IMG/VR virus record: IMGVR_UViG_3300042879_006196
Location: 124,001-188,000 of that record
Reading direction: 5' to 3' (one strand)
Source of the DNA: a virus
Length of the DNA stretch: 64,000 bases
Shown: in pieces, positions 23,447 through 52,283 of the stretch
How the letters are laid out: each line of letters starts with the position of its first letter
How positions within the stretch are numbered: the stretch's first letter is position 1
Program-made: the position numbers and the translations under genes
The notes under the pieces: model-generated
What the model was told of the DNA's origin: nothing
The model's input: only the letters and a program-made list of their open reading frames with translations
The model's database searches: none

Positions 23447-24430
23447 TTACTGACCAAGACCCCAAAGAGGGTATTGTACCATTAAATTAGGATTTGCGCC
23501 CAAACCAACAGTACCACCAGTAAAACCGCGAAGTGTTCCATTATTCAGATTCATTCCAAATGCTGGATTTACACTAACGCCATATTCAATAGCAGTGGGA
23601 GTGTTAGCAAGAAACTTGCCAAGCTGGTAATATTTAGCTGAGCCATCTGCATGACCTACAATCACGCCTTGAAAAGCCGCTCGGTTTTCATCAGCTTGAG
23701 CATTTCTTAGCCCTGAATAATTAGCCGCTTGAAGCCCAAGCTCCCAAGCCCAGTATTCTCTAACAGCTGGAGGAAATACAGTGACAGATGTAGAGGAAGC
23801 ATCTGTGCCGTAAGCAATTGGAACAACACCAATTTGTAGATTTCCACTTTCCATTAGGATACCAGCGGCGGCTGTGTTAGGAATAGCTGTCATGCTACCA
23901 CCTAGCCAGCTGTTCCTGAACATAGTAGCAGAGCCAGGAGCTCGATTCCAAGTATTAAGCTGTCCTGTAAGTGATGTGTTTAGAAGATAACTTCCTGTCA
24001 CTTGTCCACATTGAGACCAGCTACCAGTAGGGCAACTAGGTGTTGGTGCATTGACGTTGCCTCTTGAGGTATTGAAATACAACTGAACGTTTTTTACATA
24101 AGGCTGTGTCCATTTCTGCCAAGAGAAGTGATTAACGCGGTGAGCAAAACCAGCAGACACACCACAATTAACAGTAGATCCAGAAGGGATTGTATTCAAA
24201 TTACCATTCAAAGAGGAATTTGCGATACAATCGTCATTACGAGGATAATAATCATCATTATCAGCACCATACATGGTGATACCAAGCGAAATCTGCTTTT
24301 GGTTACTAATACCTGCAGCTTTCTTAGCGGCAGCTTTAGCTTGTGCAAAAACTGGGAAAAGAATGGCAGCCAGAATAGCGATAATGGCAATTACTACGAG
24401 AAGTTCGATTAAAGTAAATGCTTTTTTCAC
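23447..24430 (-). CDS. type IV pseudopilin-like protein (N-terminal methylation domain, DUF1559-like)
   Basis: The 327-residue product starts with a prepilin leader and helix (MKKA then FTLIELLVVIAIIAIL), followed by LFPVFAQAKAAAKK. The residue before the cleavage site is Ala, not the usual Gly. The body contains NQKQISLGITMYGADNDDYYP and a C-terminal domain with HADGSAKYY. This is the architecture of the expanded DUF1559-type pseudopilins of Planctomycetes and Armatimonadota; the FPVFAQA segment is, in my recollection, typical of Armatimonadota. One 60-base row inside it counts 48% GC, well above the phage background, pointing to recent acquisition from a host. GTG start at 24430, with TATAAT six bases upstream. 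Confidence 0.88.
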   Translation of the reverse strand: MKKAFTLIELLVVIAIIAILAAILFPVFAQAKAAAKKAAGISNQKQISLGITMYGADNDDYYPRNDDCIANSSLNGNLNTIPSGSTVNCGVSAGFAHRVNHFSWQKWTQPYVKNVQLYFNTSRGNVNAPTPSCPTGSWSQCGQVTGSYLLNTSLTGQLNTWNRAPGSATMFRNSWLGGSMTAIPNTAAAGILMESGNLQIGVVPIAYGTDASSTSVTVFPPAVREYWAWELGLQAANYSGLRNAQADENRAAFQGVIVGHADGSAKYYQLGKFLANTPTAIEYGVSVNPAFGMNLNNGTLRGFTGGTVGLGANPNLMVQYPLWGLGQ

Positions 24431-28843: not shown

Positions 28844-29282
28844 AATACTTTTTTCAAGCCCTATAGCATTTTTTTTAGGTGTAGGTGTATTTGTTGCCAC
28901 AGACATTTTACAACCAAGTTATTTCAAAAATATCCCAATTTACTTTCCATATTTTGCCGCTGCTATGTTTGTTGGATATTTAGCTGTCTTTTTAGCTTCA
29001 TCATATATTTCCACAACTAAATCAAAATTTAGAGCAATTTTTTTCATGATTGTATTTATGATCATAGAAGGTTTATTTTCTTTGTTGGCAGTTTCCACTT
29101 ATTATGGAAACGAAAGCATTCCAATTTTAAGGCTAATTGCATCTTTGTGCTTGCCTCTTGTTTTTAGTTTATTTTACTTTTTGAAATTAATAGAAACAGA
29201 AAAAAATGTAAAAGAATTAATAGATGAAAGAATTCTTTTCAAAAATTTTGATGAGCTTGAGTGTAGCAAGCCTAATTTCTAG
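28806..29282 (+). CDS. integral membrane protein, four predicted TM segments
   Basis: The 158-residue product has about four hydrophobic segments: IAFFLGVGVFVATDIL, FAAAMFVGYLAVFLA, FFMIVFMIIEGLFSLLAV and LCLPLVFSLFYFL. A charged cytoplasmic tail follows. No transporter motif is visible. It overlaps both neighbours (38 and 59 bases), so start choice is uncertain, but the hydrophobic pattern supports the frame. With the downstream lipoprotein it forms an envelope-directed cassette. Confidence 0.72.
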   Translation: MQWKLSVKNTIAKILFSSPIAFFLGVGVFVATDILQPSYFKNIPIYFPYFAAAMFVGYLAVFLASSYISTTKSKFRAIFFMIVFMIIEGLFSLLAVSTYYGNESIPILRLIASLCLPLVFSLFYFLKLIETEKNVKELIDERILFKNFDELECSKPNF

Positions 29283-29760
29283 TTGCTCTAGTCCAAAGCA
29301 AAGTAAATTGATTTTAATTGATATATCTGGCTCAAATGCTTCGAATATTTCTAAAACTCTAAACAAAGTGAATGAGATTTATTTAGAAAGTGGACCCAAT
29401 GATTATTTTGATATTTATTTTTTTTCAAGTGTCAAGTATTTAGCTTACACTGGAAACAAATTTAATAAAGACCGCGATTTTCTTCCATTTCTTAGGCTGG
29501 GATATGAAAAAACCGCGCAAATTAAAGTGAAAGAAGGAACATCTTTTGAGCTATGTAAATCAATTTTTGAAAATAATAAAATTTATAATCAAGCTTTTCT
29601 TTTGACAGATGGTTTTTTTGAAGACTCAAAAATCACCAAAATAAATAATTCATCCAATATGCAAATAAATATTGTTGGATTAAATATTCAGAATAATGAG
29701 ATTGTGTTAAAAGCATTTGAAAATCCAAATCAAGTGAAAATTGACTTTCAAGGTAATTGA
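29224..29760 (+). CDS. lipoprotein with a VWA-like domain
   Basis: The 178-residue product has a lipoprotein signal peptide ending in the lipobox LISSC (Cys21). Directly after it, LILIDISGSNAS gives a MIDAS-type DxSxS (residues 33-37), and later AFLLTDGFF matches the second metal-site Asp region of von Willebrand factor A folds. So it is likely a membrane-anchored metal-dependent adhesion-type domain. Phage lipoproteins often act in superinfection exclusion; that role is inference. It overlaps the membrane-protein gene by 59 bases. Confidence 0.78.
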   Translation: MKEFFSKILMSLSVASLISSCSSPKQSKLILIDISGSNASNISKTLNKVNEIYLESGPNDYFDIYFFSSVKYLAYTGNKFNKDRDFLPFLRLGYEKTAQIKVKEGTSFELCKSIFENNKIYNQAFLLTDGFFEDSKITKINNSSNMQINIVGLNIQNNEIVLKAFENPNQVKIDFQGN

Positions 29761-45312: not shown

Positions 45313-45436
45313 CAAAAAACTTCCAAAAAACCTTAAAAAAAATGACCTTTACTGTGTAGGAAAAGTATATATAATTAATACTAATTAAAAACTAAATTAG
45401 AACTAAGGTTTTTTTTTAAATTTATGTATAATGTTA

Positions 45437-45514
45437 ATGAGAATGCCGTCAATTCAAGGAAAAGGGCGTAAATATTCTCACACAATCTGCAAGGGTTTTA
45501 AATTTATATTTTAG
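45437..45514 (+). CDS. possible 25-residue basic peptide
   Basis: TATAAT (45427-45432) is followed by an ATG at 45437 opening a 25-codon frame (MRMPSIQGKGRKYSH...KFIF). The peptide is basic and ends at a TAG just before the next gene. The 9-mer ACACAATCT lies within it. It could equally be a promoter-proximal leader without coding function. Confidence 0.35.
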   Translation: MRMPSIQGKGRKYSHTICKGFKFIF

Positions 45515-45526
45515 AAAAAAATTAGT

Positions 45527-45727
45527 ATGAAGAGTGCTTACAAGAAAATTAAAAATATAATTGACGATACTTGTCACATATCTTTGAATGAAGATCATGG
45601 AGATTGTGATGATAAAATATCAAAATTTTTAATTGAAGAAGCAAAACTTCAGTGTATTATTAAAGTTTTAATTGAACACAATTATATTGATTCAAATCAT
45701 AGAACTTTTCCTGAATACACATCATAA
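45527..45727 (+). CDS. small acidic protein
   Basis: The 66-residue product is acidic and helical (IIDDTCHISLNEDHGDCDDKISKFLIEEAK). It lies eight bases ahead of the secreted ribonuclease gene. I looked for barstar-like features because of that neighbour and found no convincing match. It may still act in the cell before the RNase is exported; this is speculation. Confidence 0.62.
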   Translation: MKSAYKKIKNIIDDTCHISLNEDHGDCDDKISKFLIEEAKLQCIIKVLIEHNYIDSNHRTFPEYTS

Positions 45728-45735
45728 GGAAAAAA

Positions 45736-46158
45736 ATGAATAAAAACATATCTACAAAAATTGTATCAGCTCTTTCGATCTTTGCTCTGGCAACCACTTC
45801 TTTTGCACAATCTACTTTCGGGAGACCTCACATTAATTCAGTGACTGGTAGAGTTAATGTTTTACCAAATGTAAGAGTTATTGATTTTGGAAGACTCATT
45901 TATCAAGGAAGAATGGACGTAAATTCTACTATTGATAGAATCAGATTGGGTAGAAAGCTAAATCATAAAAATGACGGATCATTTTTTTCAAATTTTCAAC
46001 GAAGACTTCCAGCAAGCCCAGACACACAATACTACAGAGAGTTTGTTCATCAAATGAATGGTTTTCCTTTTCCTGGACCACAAAGAGTGGTAATTGGCAA
46101 AAGAGGAGAAGTGTGGTATACAGGTGATCATTACAGTTCTTTTTTCAAAGTAAGATAA
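45736..46158 (+). CDS. secreted ribonuclease of the barnase/RNase Sa superfamily
   Basis: A signal peptide (MNKNISTKIVSALSIFALATTSFA, cleavage after AFA near residue 24) precedes a compact microbial-RNase domain: NDGSFFSNFQRRLP, YYREFVHQ, GPQRVVIGKRGEVWYTGDHYSSFFKVR. The catalytic Glu (Glu102), Arg (Arg117) and His (His132) of the family are present. In place of the usual N-R-E guanine-recognition triplet it has N-F-Q (residues 86-88), so base specificity may be changed. A GG AAAAAA-type ribosome site precedes ATG. No inhibitor gene is recognised beside it. Confidence 0.88.
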   Translation: MNKNISTKIVSALSIFALATTSFAQSTFGRPHINSVTGRVNVLPNVRVIDFGRLIYQGRMDVNSTIDRIRLGRKLNHKNDGSFFSNFQRRLPASPDTQYYREFVHQMNGFPFPGPQRVVIGKRGEVWYTGDHYSSFFKVR

Positions 46159-46177: not shown

Positions 46178-47197
46178 ATGAGTAAGATTGAATCCGACAA
46201 AGAAAAAAAACAATCTATAAAACCTATTGCTAAAAAAACTGATTTTAATGGTGATAAAATAACACATTCTGAAACCGAAAAAACCAGAGGTGTTGTTGTA
46301 TTTTTATCATCTGACTTAAGTGGTGCACCAGAAGTAATAGATGTTCACGACGGTACAGTAGATTTGGATGCTACCAACTCTCTAAAGAATGACACCGAAT
46401 CAGAAAACTTGGTATTACAAAGCTTATATTTTGATTCAATTTCGCCTGAAATCAATTGTAAACAACAAAAAATGTATCTAAAAGGCTCAGGTTTAAATTC
46501 AAAATTACCTGAGATTAAATGCAAAACAACACTCAGGGAGCGAATAGAAGATAAAAAAAACTCAATGCTGTCTAGAACTATTTTTTTGATAAATTTGTTC
46601 TTTTTGAAGAAAAAGTACACAAATTTCTTTACAAATATTTATTCAGAAATAATACCAGAAGATGTTTTCCAAGCAAAGGTTTTGAATTTGACTAAGTTCA
46701 ATCGCAATAGATTGATGAAAAAGTATGGTATCAGTGAAGATGAGCTCAATTTTATTGCTTTTGCAAGATTCTCGTACCCATTTATAACTAGAGGTGAAAA
46801 AGAATGGAGCAAAATCGAAAAAAATGCTGATGCGTTCATTGCAAGAAAATGGATAACAGAAGACATTAAAGGTAATTTCAAAATAAATGTTAGCAAAGTT
46901 TATACATTCAGGGAAAAAATTATTTTTCCTAATCAATTTAAAGACATTGTTATCAAAAAAGCTTTTAATTGGAAAATCTTAAATAAGATTCTGAGAAAAG
47001 TTGAAAGAAGTGCAAAAACTCAAGTGCACGTTTATACTATTTCTCAAATTAGCAAACTTCCTTTTACCCAATTTGGAAATAGTAATATTGCCACTCATCC
47101 TCCTATTAGTAAAAATGATGAACAAATAAGTAGTTTGATCAAGAAAAAACCAATTGAAGCAATGAGTAGCATTAATAAAAAAAATTTTTTAAAATAA
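46178..47197 (+). CDS. unknown 339-residue protein
   Basis: The product has a polar, disordered-looking N-terminal third (KKQSIKPIAKKTDFNGDKITHSE) and a more compact, basic helical part from about residue 120 (TLRERIEDKKNSMLSRTIFLINLFFLKKKY, NRNRLMKKYGISEDELNFIAFARF). Lys-rich throughout. No family is recognised. It precedes the first leader/tRNA module and has its own leaderless-type promoter. Confidence 0.7.
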   Translation: MSKIESDKEKKQSIKPIAKKTDFNGDKITHSETEKTRGVVVFLSSDLSGAPEVIDVHDGTVDLDATNSLKNDTESENLVLQSLYFDSISPEINCKQQKMYLKGSGLNSKLPEIKCKTTLRERIEDKKNSMLSRTIFLINLFFLKKKYTNFFTNIYSEIIPEDVFQAKVLNLTKFNRNRLMKKYGISEDELNFIAFARFSYPFITRGEKEWSKIEKNADAFIARKWITEDIKGNFKINVSKVYTFREKIIFPNQFKDIVIKKAFNWKILNKILRKVERSAKTQVHVYTISQISKLPFTQFGNSNIATHPPISKNDEQISSLIKKKPIEAMSSINKKNFLK

Positions 47198-47264
47198 AAT
47201 AAAATAAGAAACTTTTTTAAAGGAAAAACCGTCTAAGATTGTGTAATATAAAAAAGGAACTAAA

Positions 47265-47318
47265 ATGACAAATTCGCTACTCCATTCATATCCAGCCTAC
47301 GCACCCTCATCGGGGTAG
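47265..47318 (+). CDS. 17-residue leader frame (copy 1)
   Basis: ATG at 47265 behind AAGGAACTAAA; the peptide is MTNSLLHSYPAYAPSSG and its TAG lies inside the conserved 12-mer. Copy 2 uses a different reading frame through the same 12-mer, so the nucleotide sequence, not the peptide, seems to be conserved. Confidence 0.35.
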   Translation: MTNSLLHSYPAYAPSSG

Positions 47319-47347
47319 TGGCTCGTTGCGTATTTGACAAGCTACAG

Positions 47348-47381
47348 AACCCCGAAGGACTCAAATCTTTCGGGGTTTTTT
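47348..47381 (+). terminator. intrinsic terminator of leader module 1
   Basis: AACCCCGAA pairs with TTCGGGGTT, followed by a T-run. It lies 12 bases before the shared TTGACAATTTAATA sequence that precedes the first tRNA. Confidence 0.88.
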
Positions 47382-47392
47382 ATTTTTGAACA

Positions 47393-47406
47393 TTGACAAT
47401 TTAATA
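47393..47406 (+). other. shared pre-tRNA sequence TTGACAATTTAATA
   Basis: The 14-mer lies between the terminator of module 1 and tRNA-Pro. The second copy (48381-48394, one base different) sits at the same place before tRNA-Gly. It resembles a -35 TTGACA, but is too close to the tRNA for a normal promoter. Confidence 0.45.
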
Positions 47407-47410
47407 AAAT

Positions 47411-47489
47411 CTATGCGTTGAGGAGTTTGGCTTACCTCGCGTCCCTTGGGAGGACGAGTACGCAGGTTCAAATCCTGCCGCATAGACCA
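47411..47489 (+). tRNA. tRNA-Pro(UGG)
   Basis: Acceptor CTATGCG/CGCATAG, D-stem GAGG/CCTC, anticodon stem CGTCC/GGACG with loop CTTGGGA, T-arm GCAGG/CCTGC. Discriminator A and an encoded CCA. First gene of the first cluster. Confidence 0.93.
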
Positions 47490-47493
47490 ATTT

Positions 47494-47578
47494 GGGGGCA
47501 TCGCATAGTGGCAATTGCTGGAGACTGTAAATCTCCCCTCGCGAGAGTTCGTAGGTTCGAGTCCTTCTGCCCCCACCA
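47494..47578 (+). tRNA. tRNA-Tyr(GUA)
   Basis: Acceptor GGGGGCA/TGCCCCC, anticodon stem GGAGA/TCTCC with loop CTGTAAA, long variable arm as expected for bacterial tRNA-Tyr, CCA encoded. Confidence 0.93.
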
Positions 47579-47585
47579 AAATTTT

Positions 47586-47665
47586 GCCGAAGTGGTGGAA
47601 TGCATACACGCTAGTCTTAGAAACTAGTGCCTTAGGGCATGTGGGTTCAAATCCCACCTTCGGTA
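47586..47665 (+). tRNA. tRNA-Leu(UAG)
   Basis: Acceptor GCCGAAG/CTTCGGT, anticodon stem CTAGT/ACTAG with loop CTTAGAA, long variable arm. CCA is not encoded, unlike most neighbours. Confidence 0.93.
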
Positions 47666-47671
47666 TCAAAT

Positions 47672-47745
47672 AAGCAAGTAGCTCAATTGGTAGAGCCTTT
47701 TGGTTGTGACCCAGAAGCGTGTGAGTTCAAATCTCACCTTGCTGA
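47672..47745 (+). tRNA. tRNA-His(GUG), atypical
   Basis: Anticodon loop TTGTGAC. The acceptor AAGCAAG/CTTGCTG has an A1:G72 mismatch, the discriminator reads A instead of C, there is one extra base before the anticodon stem, and no CCA. So either processing adds the His-specific features or the gene is diverging. Confidence 0.8.
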
Positions 47746-47754
47746 CTCAGTTTA

Positions 47755-47831
47755 GGGGCTGAAGCTTATTAGGGAAAGCGTCTGATTTGCAATCAGAAGT
47801 CTTGCGGGTTCGAAACCCGTCAGCTCCACCA
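47755..47831 (+). tRNA. tRNA-Ala(UGC)
   Basis: Acceptor GGGGCTG/CAGCTCC with the G3:U70 alanine determinant, anticodon stem TCTGA/TCAGA with loop TTTGCAA, discriminator A, CCA encoded. Last tRNA of the first cluster. Confidence 0.92.
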
Positions 47832-47832
47832 A

Positions 47833-48240
47833 TTACAAATCATAAAATCTCTTTGGAGTGTAAATATATTTCATAGGCTGAACACCTACCTCGTCAGGTT
47901 GAGTTGTAGGTTCTTCAGCTAATTCGCCTAATACCGCTGGTGGCTCAGGAATAGGGGGATTAATTTGTGCTGGTTCGTTAACAACATTATTTTGTTTACG
48001 ATTATATTCTCTTGCCAATTCTTTACAAGTTTCGCAAGCTCTTTCATCAAATTGCCAGATTGTGTTTCCGCCAGGAAGTTGTTCAATGAAGCATCTACAC
48101 CCTTCATGCACAGGAGGTAAGATTTGTTGTTGTGAATATTTATACCACACAATCTGATTTTCAAGAAAAAAAACAAAAAAACCTAATTTTATAGAACAAA
48201 AAGGAGATTGTGTCGTATAATCATAATAAGGAATTAACAA
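47833..48240 (-). CDS. small protein with phage-head 'HxxCRC' motif, start uncertain
   Basis: A minus-strand frame between the tRNA clusters encodes up to 135 residues. The segment LPPVHEGCRCFIEQ resembles the C-terminal P-P-x-H-x-x-C-R-C of Mu gpF/SPP1 gp7-type head morphogenesis proteins, and ERACETCKEL adds a Cys pair. A Pro-rich tail follows. The TTG at 48240 is the only upstream start-like codon; the real start may be a GTG near 48150. It overlaps the start of leader module 2 on the other strand. Confidence 0.55.
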   Translation of the reverse strand: MLIPYYDYTTQSPFCSIKLGFFVFFLENQIVWYKYSQQQILPPVHEGCRCFIEQLPGGNTIWQFDERACETCKELAREYNRKQNNVVNEPAQINPPIPEPPAVLGELAEEPTTQPDEVGVQPMKYIYTPKRFYDL

Positions 48241-48308
48241 TGAAATTAAATTTGCAGGGCAGTATGGTGGGATGTTTTATTTGGTCAACCCAAGGGGGTA
48301 GTGGCTAG
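48240..48308 (+). CDS. 22-residue leader frame (copy 2)
   Basis: ATG at 48240 behind AAGGAATTAAC. The peptide ends TQGGSG, and its TAG overlaps the end of the conserved 12-mer. Translation is plausible from the ribosome site but unproven. Confidence 0.35.
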   Translation: MKLNLQGSMVGCFIWSTQGGSG

Positions 48309-48339
48309 AAACCTGCTGTTAGCAAAAATTTCAACCAAA

Positions 48340-48373
48340 ATCCCTGAAGGCAAAATCTTCAGGGATTTTTTTT
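48340..48373 (+). terminator. intrinsic terminator of leader module 2
   Basis: ATCCCTGAAG pairs with CTTCAGGGAT, followed by eight T residues; eight bases later comes the second pre-tRNA 14-mer. Confidence 0.9.
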
Positions 48374-48380
48374 ATGTTCT

Positions 48381-48394
48381 TTGACAATTAAATA
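48381..48394 (+). other. shared pre-tRNA sequence TTGACAATTAAATA
   Basis: Second copy of the 14-mer, ending four bases before tRNA-Gly. Confidence 0.45.
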
Positions 48395-48398
48395 GTGA

Positions 48399-48474
48399 GC
48401 GATATTGGTGTTAATGGTTAGCATCACTGCCTTCCAAGCAGAGGGTGCCAGTTCGAATCTGGCATATCGCTCCA
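48399..48474 (+). tRNA. tRNA-Gly(UCC)
   Basis: Acceptor GCGATAT/ATATCGC, anticodon loop CTTCCAA, discriminator T and CCA encoded. First gene of the second cluster. Confidence 0.93.
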
Positions 48475-48482
48475 GATTATGT

Positions 48483-48558
48483 GGCTTTCAGGTGTAACTG
48501 GTGTGCACGAAGTGCTGAAAACGCTTAGGACATAGTTCAATTCTATGGGGAGCCACCA
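48483..48558 (+). tRNA. tRNA-Phe(GAA)
   Basis: Acceptor GGCTTTC/GGGAGCC with two G:U pairs, anticodon stem AAGTG/CGCTT with loop CTGAAAA, discriminator A, CCA encoded. Confidence 0.9.
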
Positions 48559-48567
48559 CAATTTTGA

Positions 48568-48654
48568 GGAAGGTAATGCTGAATGGTTTTGGCGAATGTT
48601 TGCTAAACATTTCGGGCTGAAAGGTCTCTGGTTCAATTCCAGTGCCTTCCTCCA
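48568..48654 (+). tRNA. tRNA-Ser(GCU)
   Basis: Acceptor GGAAGGT/GCCTTCC, anticodon stem AATGT/ACATT with loop TTGCTAA, long variable arm, CCA encoded. Confidence 0.93.
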
Positions 48655-48659
48655 TACAA

Positions 48660-48747
48660 GGGGAATTCGCATAGTGGTCTAGTGCGGCTGTCTTGAAAAC
48701 AGTAGGGCTGAAAGGTTCCGTGGGTTCGAATCCTACATTCCCCTCCA
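48660..48747 (+). tRNA. tRNA-Ser(UGA)
   Basis: Acceptor GGGGAAT/ATTCCCC, anticodon stem GCTGT/ACAGT with loop CTTGAAA, long variable arm, CCA encoded. Confidence 0.93.
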
Positions 48748-48755
48748 AGTTTTGT

Positions 48756-48829
48756 GTTGTCTCTAGCTCAGTTGGTAGAGCATTCCATCGCGAGGAAAGG
48801 CGAAGGTTCAATTCCTTCGGGCAACACCA
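48756..48829 (+). tRNA. tRNA, anticodon read as CGC (Ala-type), identity uncertain
   Basis: Acceptor GTTGTCT/GGGCAAC, a normal D-arm and T-arm, and a CCA. The anticodon loop reads ATCGCGA on a four-pair stem TTCC/GGAA, giving CGC. There are three bases instead of two between acceptor and D-stem, and no G3:U70. Identity is therefore open. Confidence 0.7.
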
Positions 48830-48835
48830 TTTTAT

Positions 48836-48922
48836 TGAGGAATAGTGTAATTGGTAACACGCTAGGTTTTGGCCCTAGAGACAGAAATGCTCGTCCACGT
48901 TCGAATCGTGGTTCCTCAGCCA
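48836..48922 (+). tRNA. tRNA-Gln(UUG) with an unusually long variable arm
   Basis: Acceptor TGAGGAA/TTCCTCA, discriminator G, anticodon stem CTAGG/CCTAG with loop TTTTGGC. These are glutamine features, but the variable region is about 16 bases (AGAC...CGT), more like a class II tRNA. Confidence 0.82.
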
Positions 48923-48925
48923 AGC

Positions 48926-49000
48926 ATCCGAGTAGCTCAATGGTAGAGCCCAATCTTGATAAGGTTGAGGTTTTTGGTTCAAGCCCAAACTCGGATACCA
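48926..49000 (+). tRNA. tRNA-Ile(GAU)
   Basis: Acceptor ATCCGAG/CTCGGAT, anticodon stem CAATC/GGTTG with loop TTGATAA, CCA encoded. Confidence 0.92.
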
Positions 49001-49001
49001 C

Positions 49002-49076
49002 ATCCGCGTAGCTCAACGGTAGAGCAAAATCCTTACAAGATTGAGGTTTTTGGTTCGAATCCAAACGTGGATACCA
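49002..49076 (+). tRNA. tRNA-Val(UAC)
   Basis: Acceptor ATCCGCG/CGTGGAT, anticodon loop CTTACAA, T-arm TTTGG/CCAAA, CCA encoded. Very similar to the adjacent tRNA-Ile in the acceptor and T-arm, which suggests a tandem duplication. Confidence 0.92.
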
Positions 49077-49081
49077 ATTTC

Positions 49082-49155
49082 GGCAAATTAGCTCAATGGC
49101 AGAGCGGAGGTATCATAAGCCTTTGATAAAAGTTCGATTCTTTTATTTGCCCCCA
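49082..49155 (+). tRNA. tRNA-Met or tRNA-Ile2 (CAU)
   Basis: Acceptor GGCAAAT/ATTTGCC, anticodon loop ATCATAA. The discriminator appears to be C, which is odd for Met or Ile, and separating Met from lysidine-type Ile2 is not possible from the sequence alone. Confidence 0.82.
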
Positions 49156-49158
49156 TAA

Positions 49159-49232
49159 GCACGATTAGCTAAATGGTAAAGCAAGGGTCTGCAAAACCTT
49201 TATCGCTGGTTCGATTCCAGCATTGTGCTCCA
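49159..49232 (+). tRNA. tRNA-Cys(GCA)
   Basis: Acceptor GCACGAT/ATTGTGC, anticodon stem AGGGT/ACCTT with loop CTGCAAA, discriminator T as expected for Cys, CCA encoded. Confidence 0.92.
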
Positions 49233-49235
49233 TAC

Positions 49236-49310
49236 ACCGCTGAGAGTAGGTTGTTTCTAAAGAGTCTCCAAAACTTTTTTACCTGGGTTCAAATCCCAGC
49301 GGCGGTGCCA
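49236..49310 (+). tRNA. tRNA-Trp(CCA)
   Basis: Acceptor ACCGCTG/CGGCGGT, anticodon stem AGAGT/ACTTT with loop CTCCAAA, T-arm CTGGG/CCCAG, discriminator G as expected for Trp. The D-arm is weak. Confidence 0.85.
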
Positions 49311-49313
49311 ATC

Positions 49314-49622
49314 TCACGACACAATCTTAATAATATGCGGTTCTGTTTCTGAGATATTGAATATACCATCACCCAATTGATATTTTTTACCTAAATCATC
49401 AATGAAATCCTGAAATTGCGTTTCAGCATTTTCAATCACTTCTTGGTTTTGTGCAAATTCTGCCTGTAGGGATTGCATTTGCTTTTCAGTTTTTCTCATC
49501 ATATCAAATAAATCTGATCTTTTTCCTTTCAGATTAAGAATACCAGCTCTCATTTGGGTATAGTTGTTGAATTCTTCTTTGGAAAGTGCTTTTTCAGATT
49601 GTGTGTCGCTTTTGAACTTCAT
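49314..49622 (-). CDS. small coiled-coil protein
   Basis: The 102-residue product is helical with heptad character (DLFDMMRKTEKQMQSLQAEFAQNQEVIENAETQ core) and a short beta-like end. Two copies of the AGATTGTGT 9-mer lie in it, one encoding TQS and one IVS. No family is recognised. The ATG has a TAAAAT box six bases upstream. Confidence 0.68.
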   Translation of the reverse strand: MKFKSDTQSEKALSKEEFNNYTQMRAGILNLKGKRSDLFDMMRKTEKQMQSLQAEFAQNQEVIENAETQFQDFIDDLGKKYQLGDGIFNISETEPHIIKIVS

Positions 49623-49628
49623 AATATT

Positions 49629-49634
49629 ATTTTA
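49629..49634 (-). promoter_or_regulatory. leaderless-type -10 box
   Basis: TTGTAAAAT, six bases, then ATG at 49622. The box lies only a few bases from the end of the amidase gene. Confidence 0.5.
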
Positions 49635-49640
49635 CAAGAT

Positions 49641-50489
49641 TTATCTTGTTCTTATTAAAACAAAAGTGGCTCCAGTTTTATCACAAACATCTCTCAAAAA
49701 TATCCAAGCGCTGCCATTTTCATCTATCTCGGCTACAGGCACAGAATAACCTTTCAAGCCATTCATCCACACAATGTTTTTGCCCATTTTTGTCAAAGCA
49801 TAATTTTTGGGTTGTAATTTATTAATAAATTCTCTAGCAGGAACAATAGTTCTACTATTTACCACTCTTGTTTTACCATAAATGAAAACATTATCTCCCA
49901 ATGTTATTTCAAAAACAGGATTAGTCCAAGGCGCGGCACCTTCCCCACTAAAAATTAAATATTGTTTATTTACTGCATCTACAAATTTTGTTTTGTCTAC
50001 AAGTTTACCAGGGCATGTTTTATTTGTCAAAGGGTCATCTCTATGGAATTTAAGTGTAGGTGGTTGCACCTTTAGATAATCGCAAAGAAACCCACACAAT
50101 TCTTGAGTGATTTCAAAAATTTCTTTTGCTCTATGTGAAGTGAAATCTGTAACAGTGTCGTAGTCACCTAGCATTTCTATACCCCAAGCATTAGCATTAT
50201 AGCTTTTGGCATGTACGCCAGGTTTGTTTAATGCTTGAAAAAGAATAATTCCTTTATCATCTACAAAAAAATGTGGTGCACCGTTCCAATTCATAACATG
50301 CTCATAATAATATTTCAAATTGATGAGATGTTGATCTGTGAAGCCATTTGGTCTTTGTGAAAGATTAGGTGAGGCTGTGTGATGTACTACAACAAATTGC
50401 GGTTTAAATGAAGTGAAATTCAAAGTTGCTAAATAAGTTTTTAGTTCTGCGATCGTTACTCTTTTGCCAACATAAGGAATAGTGCCCAT
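49641..50489 (-). CDS. N-acetylmuramoyl-L-alanine amidase (Amidase_2) with C-terminal copper-amine-oxidase-N-like domain
   Basis: Residues about 25-165 form an Amidase_2 domain: VVVHHTAS (His36), WGIEML (Glu105), KFHRDDP (His149) and KTCPG (Lys157, Cys159), matching T7-lysozyme-like zinc ligands and the catalytic Lys. The C-terminal part (TRVVNSRTIVPAREFINKL, AWIFLRDVCDKTGA) resembles the copper amine oxidase N-terminal-like domain often used as a binding module. It cleaves the peptidoglycan MurNAc-L-Ala bond, so it is an endolysin or a virion-associated lysin. No holin is recognised beside it. Confidence 0.92.
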   Translation of the reverse strand: MGTIPYVGKRVTIAELKTYLATLNFTSFKPQFVVVHHTASPNLSQRPNGFTDQHLINLKYYYEHVMNWNGAPHFFVDDKGIILFQALNKPGVHAKSYNANAWGIEMLGDYDTVTDFTSHRAKEIFEITQELCGFLCDYLKVQPPTLKFHRDDPLTNKTCPGKLVDKTKFVDAVNKQYLIFSGEGAAPWTNPVFEITLGDNVFIYGKTRVVNSRTIVPAREFINKLQPKNYALTKMGKNIVWMNGLKGYSVPVAEIDENGSAWIFLRDVCDKTGATFVLIRTR

Positions 50490-50532
50490 AACTTTATTCT
50501 TCTAAATAAAAATTAATTTTCACTTTTTCTTT

Positions 50533-50538
50533 TATAAC
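50533..50538 (+). promoter_or_regulatory. leaderless-type -10 box (TATAAC)
   Basis: TATAAC, six bases, then the ATG at 50545. It shares a 55-base divergent spacer with the amidase start. Confidence 0.4.
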
Positions 50539-50544
50539 TTTAAT

Positions 50545-51090
50545 ATGACTTTGAATTGCAATATTCCACATTTTGAATGTTTTGTTAAAAAAGAATTTCT
50601 TACCAACTTTACACAATCTGATGAGTTGATAAAAGCCAAAGCTTTTGCAGTGTCGAGCACAAGAGGTCAAGTGTTACAGTTTCATGTTTTGACAGAGCAT
50701 GGAGCAATGTTTTCTAAACTTCCAGTGCATGCTTTAGTTCTTAAAAAAGATTATGAAAAAATGGAATTAAATCAGCTTGTCACTTATGATACTTTTAGTT
50801 TTCATTTGTCAAACATTACTTATGATTATTTAAAATATTTGACATGCACATACTTTGCTGGTGATAAACGCGAAAAATATGGGGCTACATATTTTACAAC
50901 AGTTGATTTTTATGATTCCGAGTATGCAGATCACCCTGGTGTCACTAAATGTTGTCATATTTTGTTTTTAGATAATGGCAATATTGCGGCAGCACCAAAC
51001 AATAGAATCCTATGGAACGACACAGGATTAAAGTCAGATGTAACGAAAATTGATTATAAGCCTTTAAATAAAATCTTTACAGTGGAATGA
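50545..51090 (+). CDS. unknown 181-residue protein
   Basis: The product has mixed alpha/beta content (HVLTEHGAMFSKLPVHALVLKKDY, ATYFTTVDFYDSEYADHPGVTKCCHILFLDNG), with aspartates and histidines near the end of strands, but no family is recognised. It overlaps the aminoacyl-transferase-like gene by four bases (ATGA), so the two are co-translated. Confidence 0.72.
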   Translation: MTLNCNIPHFECFVKKEFLTNFTQSDELIKAKAFAVSSTRGQVLQFHVLTEHGAMFSKLPVHALVLKKDYEKMELNQLVTYDTFSFHLSNITYDYLKYLTCTYFAGDKREKYGATYFTTVDFYDSEYADHPGVTKCCHILFLDNGNIAAAPNNRILWNDTGLKSDVTKIDYKPLNKIFTVE

Positions 51091-51872
51091 AAATATTTTT
51101 TGATCATATTCTTTTTCAGCAAACTAATTACAATTTTAATCATACACTTGTATCTGCAATTTTTGAAGAAAATGAATATAATTATGCATTAGAAAATGGA
51201 TGGTTTCCAGATAATTTTTGGATAAATTCATCTACAAGTCATTCAATAAGATGTGAAAAATTGGGCGAATTTGTTTGGTCTCCAATAAGATCTTCTAGAA
51301 TTAAAGTGGAGGATTTTGTACTTGACAAAAAAGATAGAAGATTACTTAAAAATAATATTGATGTAGAAAAGCAAATTGTTTCGCAAATAGATACTGTAGA
51401 AGTGTTTGAAGTTTATAAAAAATATATTTGCGCAAAAGGATTCGATGATTTTAAGGATTCATTAGAAGATTTCAAACATAGTTTTTGCCGAGAAGATTTT
51501 CATTTTTTACTTTACAAACAAAACACAATCTTAATAGGCTTTTGTATTGTGCAACCATTTGGAAATAATCTAGTGTCTTATCAATTTTGTTGGGATTATG
51601 AAAATCCAAAATTAAGTTTGGGAAAATTTTCACAAATTCAAGAAATAGAATATGCTAAATCACTCAACATGAATTATGTTTACATAGGATGCATTGCTGA
51701 AAAAGAAGGAATGTATAAAAGTAATTTTTCTGGATTTGAATATTTTAATGGAAGAGAATGGAGAAAGAAAGATAACTTAATCGAAAAATGGCTTTTGAAT
51801 GATTCAGATTGTGTGAGTATTGACAGATTGTGTGAGTTAGAAAAGGAATACATCAAAGACTACCAGGTTTAA
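51087..51872 (+). CDS. ATE/Bpt-like aminoacyl-tRNA-protein transferase
   Basis: The 261-residue product resembles the C-terminal GNAT-like half of arginyl/leucyl-tRNA-protein transferases: LIGFCIVQPFGNNLVSYQFCWDYENP, then LSLGKFSQIQEIEYAKSLNMNYVYIGC, and MYKSNFSGFEYFNGREW (cf. G-Y-W-I...K-M-x-Y-K-A-x-F-x-P-x-E of bacterial Bpt). Bacterial enzymes add Leu or Arg to acidic N-termini and mark proteins for degradation. Which amino acid this one transfers is unknown; the N-terminal half is divergent. Confidence 0.75.
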   Translation: MKIFFDHILFQQTNYNFNHTLVSAIFEENEYNYALENGWFPDNFWINSSTSHSIRCEKLGEFVWSPIRSSRIKVEDFVLDKKDRRLLKNNIDVEKQIVSQIDTVEVFEVYKKYICAKGFDDFKDSLEDFKHSFCREDFHFLLYKQNTILIGFCIVQPFGNNLVSYQFCWDYENPKLSLGKFSQIQEIEYAKSLNMNYVYIGCIAEKEGMYKSNFSGFEYFNGREWRKKDNLIEKWLLNDSDCVSIDRLCELEKEYIKDYQV

Positions 51873-51893
51873 CCCATTTTAATTTAAAAATGA

Positions 51894-52283
51894 TTATTGA
51901 ATTTCAGGCTCAAAATAAGAAATCATCGTGATAGCTTCTGATTTATTAGTGAACATAGGAAAAAATCTCTCTTCAGTTCTGATCACATAATTCACATTAT
52001 CATCGGGAATAATTTCCGCTTTTACTAAACAATCTAAAATAGCCTTATTAATGTTATCAATGTCTGATTTTCTCGTGAAACCCCTTCCTTGCACTACTTT
52101 AATTTCTATTTCTATTGGAAAGCCATCAGGCTTATCTAGACCATTTTTTAACAGCGGAATATTTAGTTCAAGCCAATTTCTATAATGTTTTGATTTAACC
52201 ATCCCATATTTTTTAGATGGTGTATACATTTTGTTTTTAGAAATAGGTGGACCAATCGTGATTGAAGTGCGTTTTATAATCAT
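51894..52283 (-). CDS. rusA: RusA-like Holliday junction resolvase
   Basis: The 129-residue product has the RusA pattern: GPPISKNKMYTPSK near the N-terminus, SDIDNINKAILDCLVKA (Asp74, Asp76, Lys80) and IIPDDNV (Asp94/95). These correspond to the three catalytic acidic residues and the lysine of E. coli RusA. It probably resolves branched DNA before packaging. It lies immediately downstream of a structural gene on the same strand, 17 bases apart. Confidence 0.9.
   Translation of the reverse strand: MIIKRTSITIGPPISKNKMYTPSKKYGMVKSKHYRNWLELNIPLLKNGLDKPDGFPIEIEIKVVQGRGFTRKSDIDNINKAILDCLVKAEIIPDDNVNYVIRTEERFFPMFTNKSEAITMISYFEPEIQ

Follow-up and report, generated by a model that had tools for sequence, protein, structure and literature searches.

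A phage gene for a predicted exported ribonuclease of the barnase/RNase Sa family

The closest described relatives of the phage gene reported here encode bacterial ribonucleases. In barnase of Bacillus amyloliquefaciens, Glu73 and His102 form the catalytic pair, and Lys27, Ser57, Arg59, Arg83 and Arg87 are vital for RNA binding and activity (PMC9321962). The last residue of the base-recognition triplet (N58-R59-E60 in barnase) is equivalent to Glu46 of RNase T1, which is among the guanine contacts of that enzyme (PMC9266746). Barnase is neutralised by barstar, and PF00545 domains also form the toxin ends of polymorphic toxins, where they are paired with barstar immunity (PMC3482391). Several secreted Bacillus RNases, among them binase, balnase and balifase, live without barstar (PMC8837141). 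The Streptomyces enzymes RNase Sa2 and RNase Sa3, also secreted, carry the triplet N-R-E and arginines at the Arg65 and Arg68 sites. Literature searches for a phage-encoded barnase and for Glu60 found nothing direct.

The window analysed here is a stretch of 64,000 nucleotides, positions 124001-188000 of a 347,392-base IMG/VR virus record (IMGVR_UViG_3300042879_006196). On the + strand, at 45736-46158, it contains a gene for a 140-aa microbial ribonuclease (PF00545), predicted to be exported, exactly where the preliminary description had placed it; the observation was confirmed, as was its position, and such a gene is unusual in a phage. The identification draws on the ORF, a ribosome-binding site rated good (AAGGA, 45726-45730), a Pfam match, likeness to RNase Sa3 and RNase Sa2 in sequence and predicted fold, and codon fit. 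The one virus-borne copy known comes from a single metagenomic contig, and a bacterial gene misjoined to phage sequence by assembly, or host contamination, would account for the failure to find a second. The genes on both sides, however, have homologues in a related phage contig, and the codon usage of the RNase gene is the third-best fit among 51 window genes, with a GC content of 34.5% vs 33% for the window. Since both flanking genes are kept in the related contig and codon usage fits the phage, the gene is true phage DNA with native codon usage, and an artefact of assembly or contamination is scarcely credible. The codon fit further indicates that the gene is no recent arrival.

The product belongs to a known enzyme family and is not a new type of system. 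Residues 81-139 matched PF00545 with 36.3 bits (E = 8.5e-9; Pfam cut-off 24), and phmmer matched the protein to RNase Sa3 (1.3e-9), RNase Sa2 (2e-6) and then Sa, binase and barnase. Across the base-binding loop the alignment with RNase Sa3 has no gaps (FSNFQRRLP in the phage, FQNREGLLP in RNase Sa3). From 36 sequences AlphaFold2 produced a model with a pLDDT of at least 92 in each 10-residue block of residues 41-140, and Foldseek matched this model to RNase Sa2 at 3e-6 (rmsd 1.3 Å over ~78 columns). The predicted fold is that of RNase Sa2 and Sa3, the microbial RNase fold, and the comparison with RNase Sa and barnase that had been proposed aligns Glu102, Arg117 and His132 with their catalytic residues. 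Taken together, the match in family, fold and active site lies far beyond chance. The original label "barnase-type" holds for the barnase/RNase Sa family as a whole, but by phmmer, Foldseek and the tree the domain is nearer to RNase Sa and to the bacterial subclade described below than to barnase, to which it is ~28% identical over the aligned core.

The alignment of homologues bore out all three catalytic residues that had been named: Glu102 (46039-46041), the catalytic base (barnase Glu73, RNase Sa Glu54); Arg117 (46084-46086), which binds phosphate (barnase Arg87, RNase Sa Arg69); and His132 (46129-46131), the catalytic acid (barnase His102, RNase Sa His85). Tyr133 is retained as well. The base-recognition triplet, located by gapless alignments and the homologue tally, reads N86-F87-Q88 (45991-45999), so that the guanine-contacting glutamate (barnase Glu60, RNase Sa Glu41) is absent and Gln88 stands in its place. 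In a tally of 91 homologue rows, a few of them duplicated, the triplet Asn was invariant where present, position 87 was Phe in 12 rows, N-F-E being the second most frequent form, and Glu at position 88 was kept in 83. Gln at position 88 was called in two rows; one of these (L039) results from misalignment next to an insertion, and Nocardia stercoris is the sole clear case. The replacement of N-R-E by N-F-Q had been presented as an altered triplet, and that much stands, but judged from these rows the change from Arg to Phe is ordinary and only that from Glu to Gln is rare. Triplet form showed no clear pattern with barstar presence among the homologues, and NFE forms possess barstars. Because the glutamate of the pocket is Gln88, base preference is probably relaxed from a strict preference for guanine, whereas binase, balnase and balifase are canonical guanyl-preferring enzymes.

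A further active-site difference was overlooked in the preliminary description. The second active-site arginine (barnase Arg83, RNase Sa Arg65) is absent and Pro113 (46072-46074) occupies its site, as mapped by alignment with residue roles taken from PMC9321962; the arginine that precedes the Arg87 equivalent is likewise replaced, by Gln116. Both sites differ from those of RNase Sa2 and Sa3, with which the phage protein shares its predicted fold and its catalytic Glu, Arg and His, and with which it would also share secretion. Loss of the Arg83 equivalent is subclade-wide. In the tree the phage RNase falls, with support of 100/100, in a subclade of 17 rows, nine of them planctomycetal, in which Arg occupies this site in 0 of 16 members vs 70 of 71 others. 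The 16 members still score as PF00545 relatives, so the residue is dispensable for membership of the wider family. In this subclade (L031-L046), which we call 'GPQR', both arginine sites are replaced, mostly by Pro or Ala and by Gln, often with a new His. The pattern at the Arg83 site together with Gln116 thus places the phage RNase in a distinct, arginine-poor subclade that is uncharacterised and mainly planctomycetal. The best bacterial matches are from Schlesneria and its relatives, most of the closest being 45-53% identical; His105 is shared with 7 of 16 members, and several members have N-terminal signal or anchor segments. The bacterial proteins differ from the phage RNase in mostly keeping an acidic triplet residue and a downstream barstar gene. 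PF00545 was carried by 18 of the 392 Planctomycetota genomes sampled.

With Phe87, Gln88 and Pro113 in place of barnase Arg59, Glu60 and Arg83, and with a long branch in the tree (1.54 changes per column), the protein could be a catalytically weak or dead RNase fold that serves some other function, for example binding to RNA or to membranes; the mature protein is also very basic (pI ~10.9). Such decay has a recognisable form in a clearly degenerate Paraburkholderia homologue, where the triplet is NSA and the catalytic Glu and His are changed to Thr and Tyr; in the phage protein, by contrast, Glu102, Arg117, His132 and Tyr133 are all retained. Loss of the Arg83 equivalent is, moreover, found throughout the subclade, whose members mostly still adjoin a barstar gene, implying that they are active RNases despite that loss. 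A weak or dead enzyme is therefore unlikely, though it deserves to be kept in mind, and the phage gene probably encodes an exported, active RNase.

Export is suggested by the N-terminus, MNKNISTKIVSALSIFALATTSFA followed by QS, in which residues 1-24 (45736-45807) form a predicted Sec signal peptide with cleavage between SFA and QS. Its hydrophobicity ranks third among 51 window genes, and SFA followed by Q is acceptable as a signal peptidase I site under a simple cleavage rule. The signal peptide proposed earlier thus agrees with simple rules of hydrophobicity and cleavage, N-terminal signal or anchor segments are present in many homologues, and export through a Sec-type signal peptide is plausible. 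An exported RNase might be released to harm neighbouring bacteria, in keeping with the use of PF00545 domains in polymorphic toxins (PMC3482391), of which a plasmid Rhs example was found here. The phage protein, however, consists of signal peptide and catalytic domain only, with no delivery or trafficking domain, and killing neighbours would presumably be of little benefit to a dying infected host; an antibacterial role is accordingly improbable. A probable phage-encoded lipoprotein, with the lipobox-like sequence LISSC, is found at 29224-29760. The window also encodes, at 23447-24430 on the - strand, a pseudopilin-like protein (PF07963) that starts MKKAFTLIELLVVIAIIAILAAILFPVFAQAK and is not what one would expect a phage to carry. 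At the N-terminus it is similar to pseudopilins of planctomycetes, and to those of Armatimonadota too, which hints at what the host may be.

No barstar (PF01337) was found in the 347-kb record with the Pfam profile, and a profile made from the barstars of homologue loci matched none of its ORFs of at least 40 aa, upholding the original remark that no barstar-like inhibitor is recognisable. Barstar was present at 66 of 85 bacterial homologue loci, mostly just downstream of the RNase gene, and was not detected at the other 19. Since none was detected at these 19 loci, and several secreted Bacillus RNases lack barstar (PMC8837141), an inhibitor-free RNase has precedent, and the absence of barstar from the record fits protection by export. 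The phage RNase in this respect resembles binase, balnase and balifase, if its predicted secretion is correct, and departs from the barnase-barstar pair, with which it shares its family and the catalytic pair Glu73/His102; Arg59, Glu60 and Arg83 are replaced in the phage protein.

The preliminary description had also pointed to the 66-aa protein encoded directly upstream (45527-45727, + strand) as a place to look for an inhibitor fold. A toxin-inhibitor pair, in which this protein would neutralise the RNase as barstar does barnase, is made conceivable by the 8-base spacing between the two genes, which are probably in the same operon, and by the frequency of barstar at bacterial homologue loci. 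The 66-aa protein nevertheless models as a two-helix hairpin and not as a barstar fold, albeit with modest confidence (pLDDT 74), and a barstar gene usually follows its RNase gene instead of preceding it. A 57-aa homologue (E = 7e-11) is, in addition, present in the related contig G003, where a profile search of its 166 kb found no PF00545. The 66-aa protein was therefore rejected as a cognate inhibitor, and a toxin-inhibitor pair is very improbable.

Contig G003 (166 kb), which spans the RNase locus, was among related contigs found through the terminase. The gene downstream of the RNase encodes a 339-aa phage protein (46178-47197, + strand) that is kept in G003 at 48% identity in the absence of the RNase. 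Comparison of window positions 46178-52283 with L019 and L025 showed a segment inverted between the two related phages, which starts with the 339-aa gene, takes in the tRNA array and an amidase gene, and extends to a 129-aa gene that we take to be RusA-like. An accessory gene lies at each breakpoint of the inversion, the RNase at one and, in G003, a 501-aa protein with weak matches to DUF2726 and INT_rpt at the other. The array comprises 15 tRNA genes (47411-49310), and a match to PF04377, the arginyl-tRNA-protein transferase C-terminal family, unusual for a phage, lies at 51087-51872.

Upstream of the 66-aa gene is a conserved leader (45421-45480, + strand) comprising the promoter-like box TTTATGTATAAT and a hairpin (45438-45444 paired with 45474-45480) that encloses CCGTCA..GGAAAA.GGCGTA. 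The same element is found in G003, at L019:6551-6615, with stems of GAAGC.GAGT/ACTC.GCTTC in place of TGAGAAT/ATTCTCA and a different gene behind it: there, a DUF6065 gene fills the slot after the shared promoter-leader. A comparison with Rfam gave no match, and a wide pattern scan returned 13 stretches, about the number expected by chance on a rough estimate, with the full element only in G003. The leader is possibly an unclassified regulatory RNA. Since the flanks are kept and the contents of the slot differ in G003, the RNase gene is accessory and the slot that it occupies variable, the gene having been either inserted in one phage lineage or lost in the other.

Homologues in other viruses were sought in several collections. 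Among the 50,697 phage records of INPHARED, four queries gave no match beyond weak ones at chance level; the same phage-protein query matched 15 plasmid records. There was no RNase match in PHROGs and none at an E of 0.001 or better among the BFVD structures. Three scans of IMG/VR were negative as well, and these used exact short peptide patterns that diverged copies could escape. The earlier judgement that a phage-encoded exported RNase is unusual is supported by INPHARED, PHROGs and BFVD. It is quite possible, though offered tentatively, that this is the first phage-borne exported RNase of the barnase/RNase Sa family, inhibitor-free, with its pocket retuned from guanine and possibly destroying extracytoplasmic RNA.

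In the course of events that we favour, the phage would have acquired the gene from a bacterial member of the 'GPQR' subclade, which is best sampled in Planctomycetota, and the gene would since have become fully adapted to phage codon usage. An infected cell would express the RNase from an operon shared with the 66-aa protein, the signal peptide would carry it across the inner membrane, and export, not an inhibitor, would shield cytoplasmic RNA. As a metal-independent endoribonuclease, it would cut RNA by Glu-His transesterification involving Glu102, His132 and Arg117. Accumulating outside the cytoplasm, it might then degrade extracytoplasmic RNA, mainly that freed at lysis. This last step is the weakest of the proposal: clearing extracytoplasmic RNA is our first choice of role, with antagonism of neighbours second, and is itself a doubtful assignment.

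Phages usually act on intracellular RNA. If the RNase is exported, RNA beyond the cytoplasm would matter to a phage, be it within the periplasm, in the surroundings or at the time of lysis. For the family, a subclade that lacks an arginine vital in barnase and mostly retains barstar partners opens the minimal catalytic set to direct testing, and the phage RNase would, if this reading is true, be the first characterised member of the arginine-poor 'GPQR' subclade. It would also mean that a giant phage arms the envelope of its host with an RNase that lacks an inhibitor.
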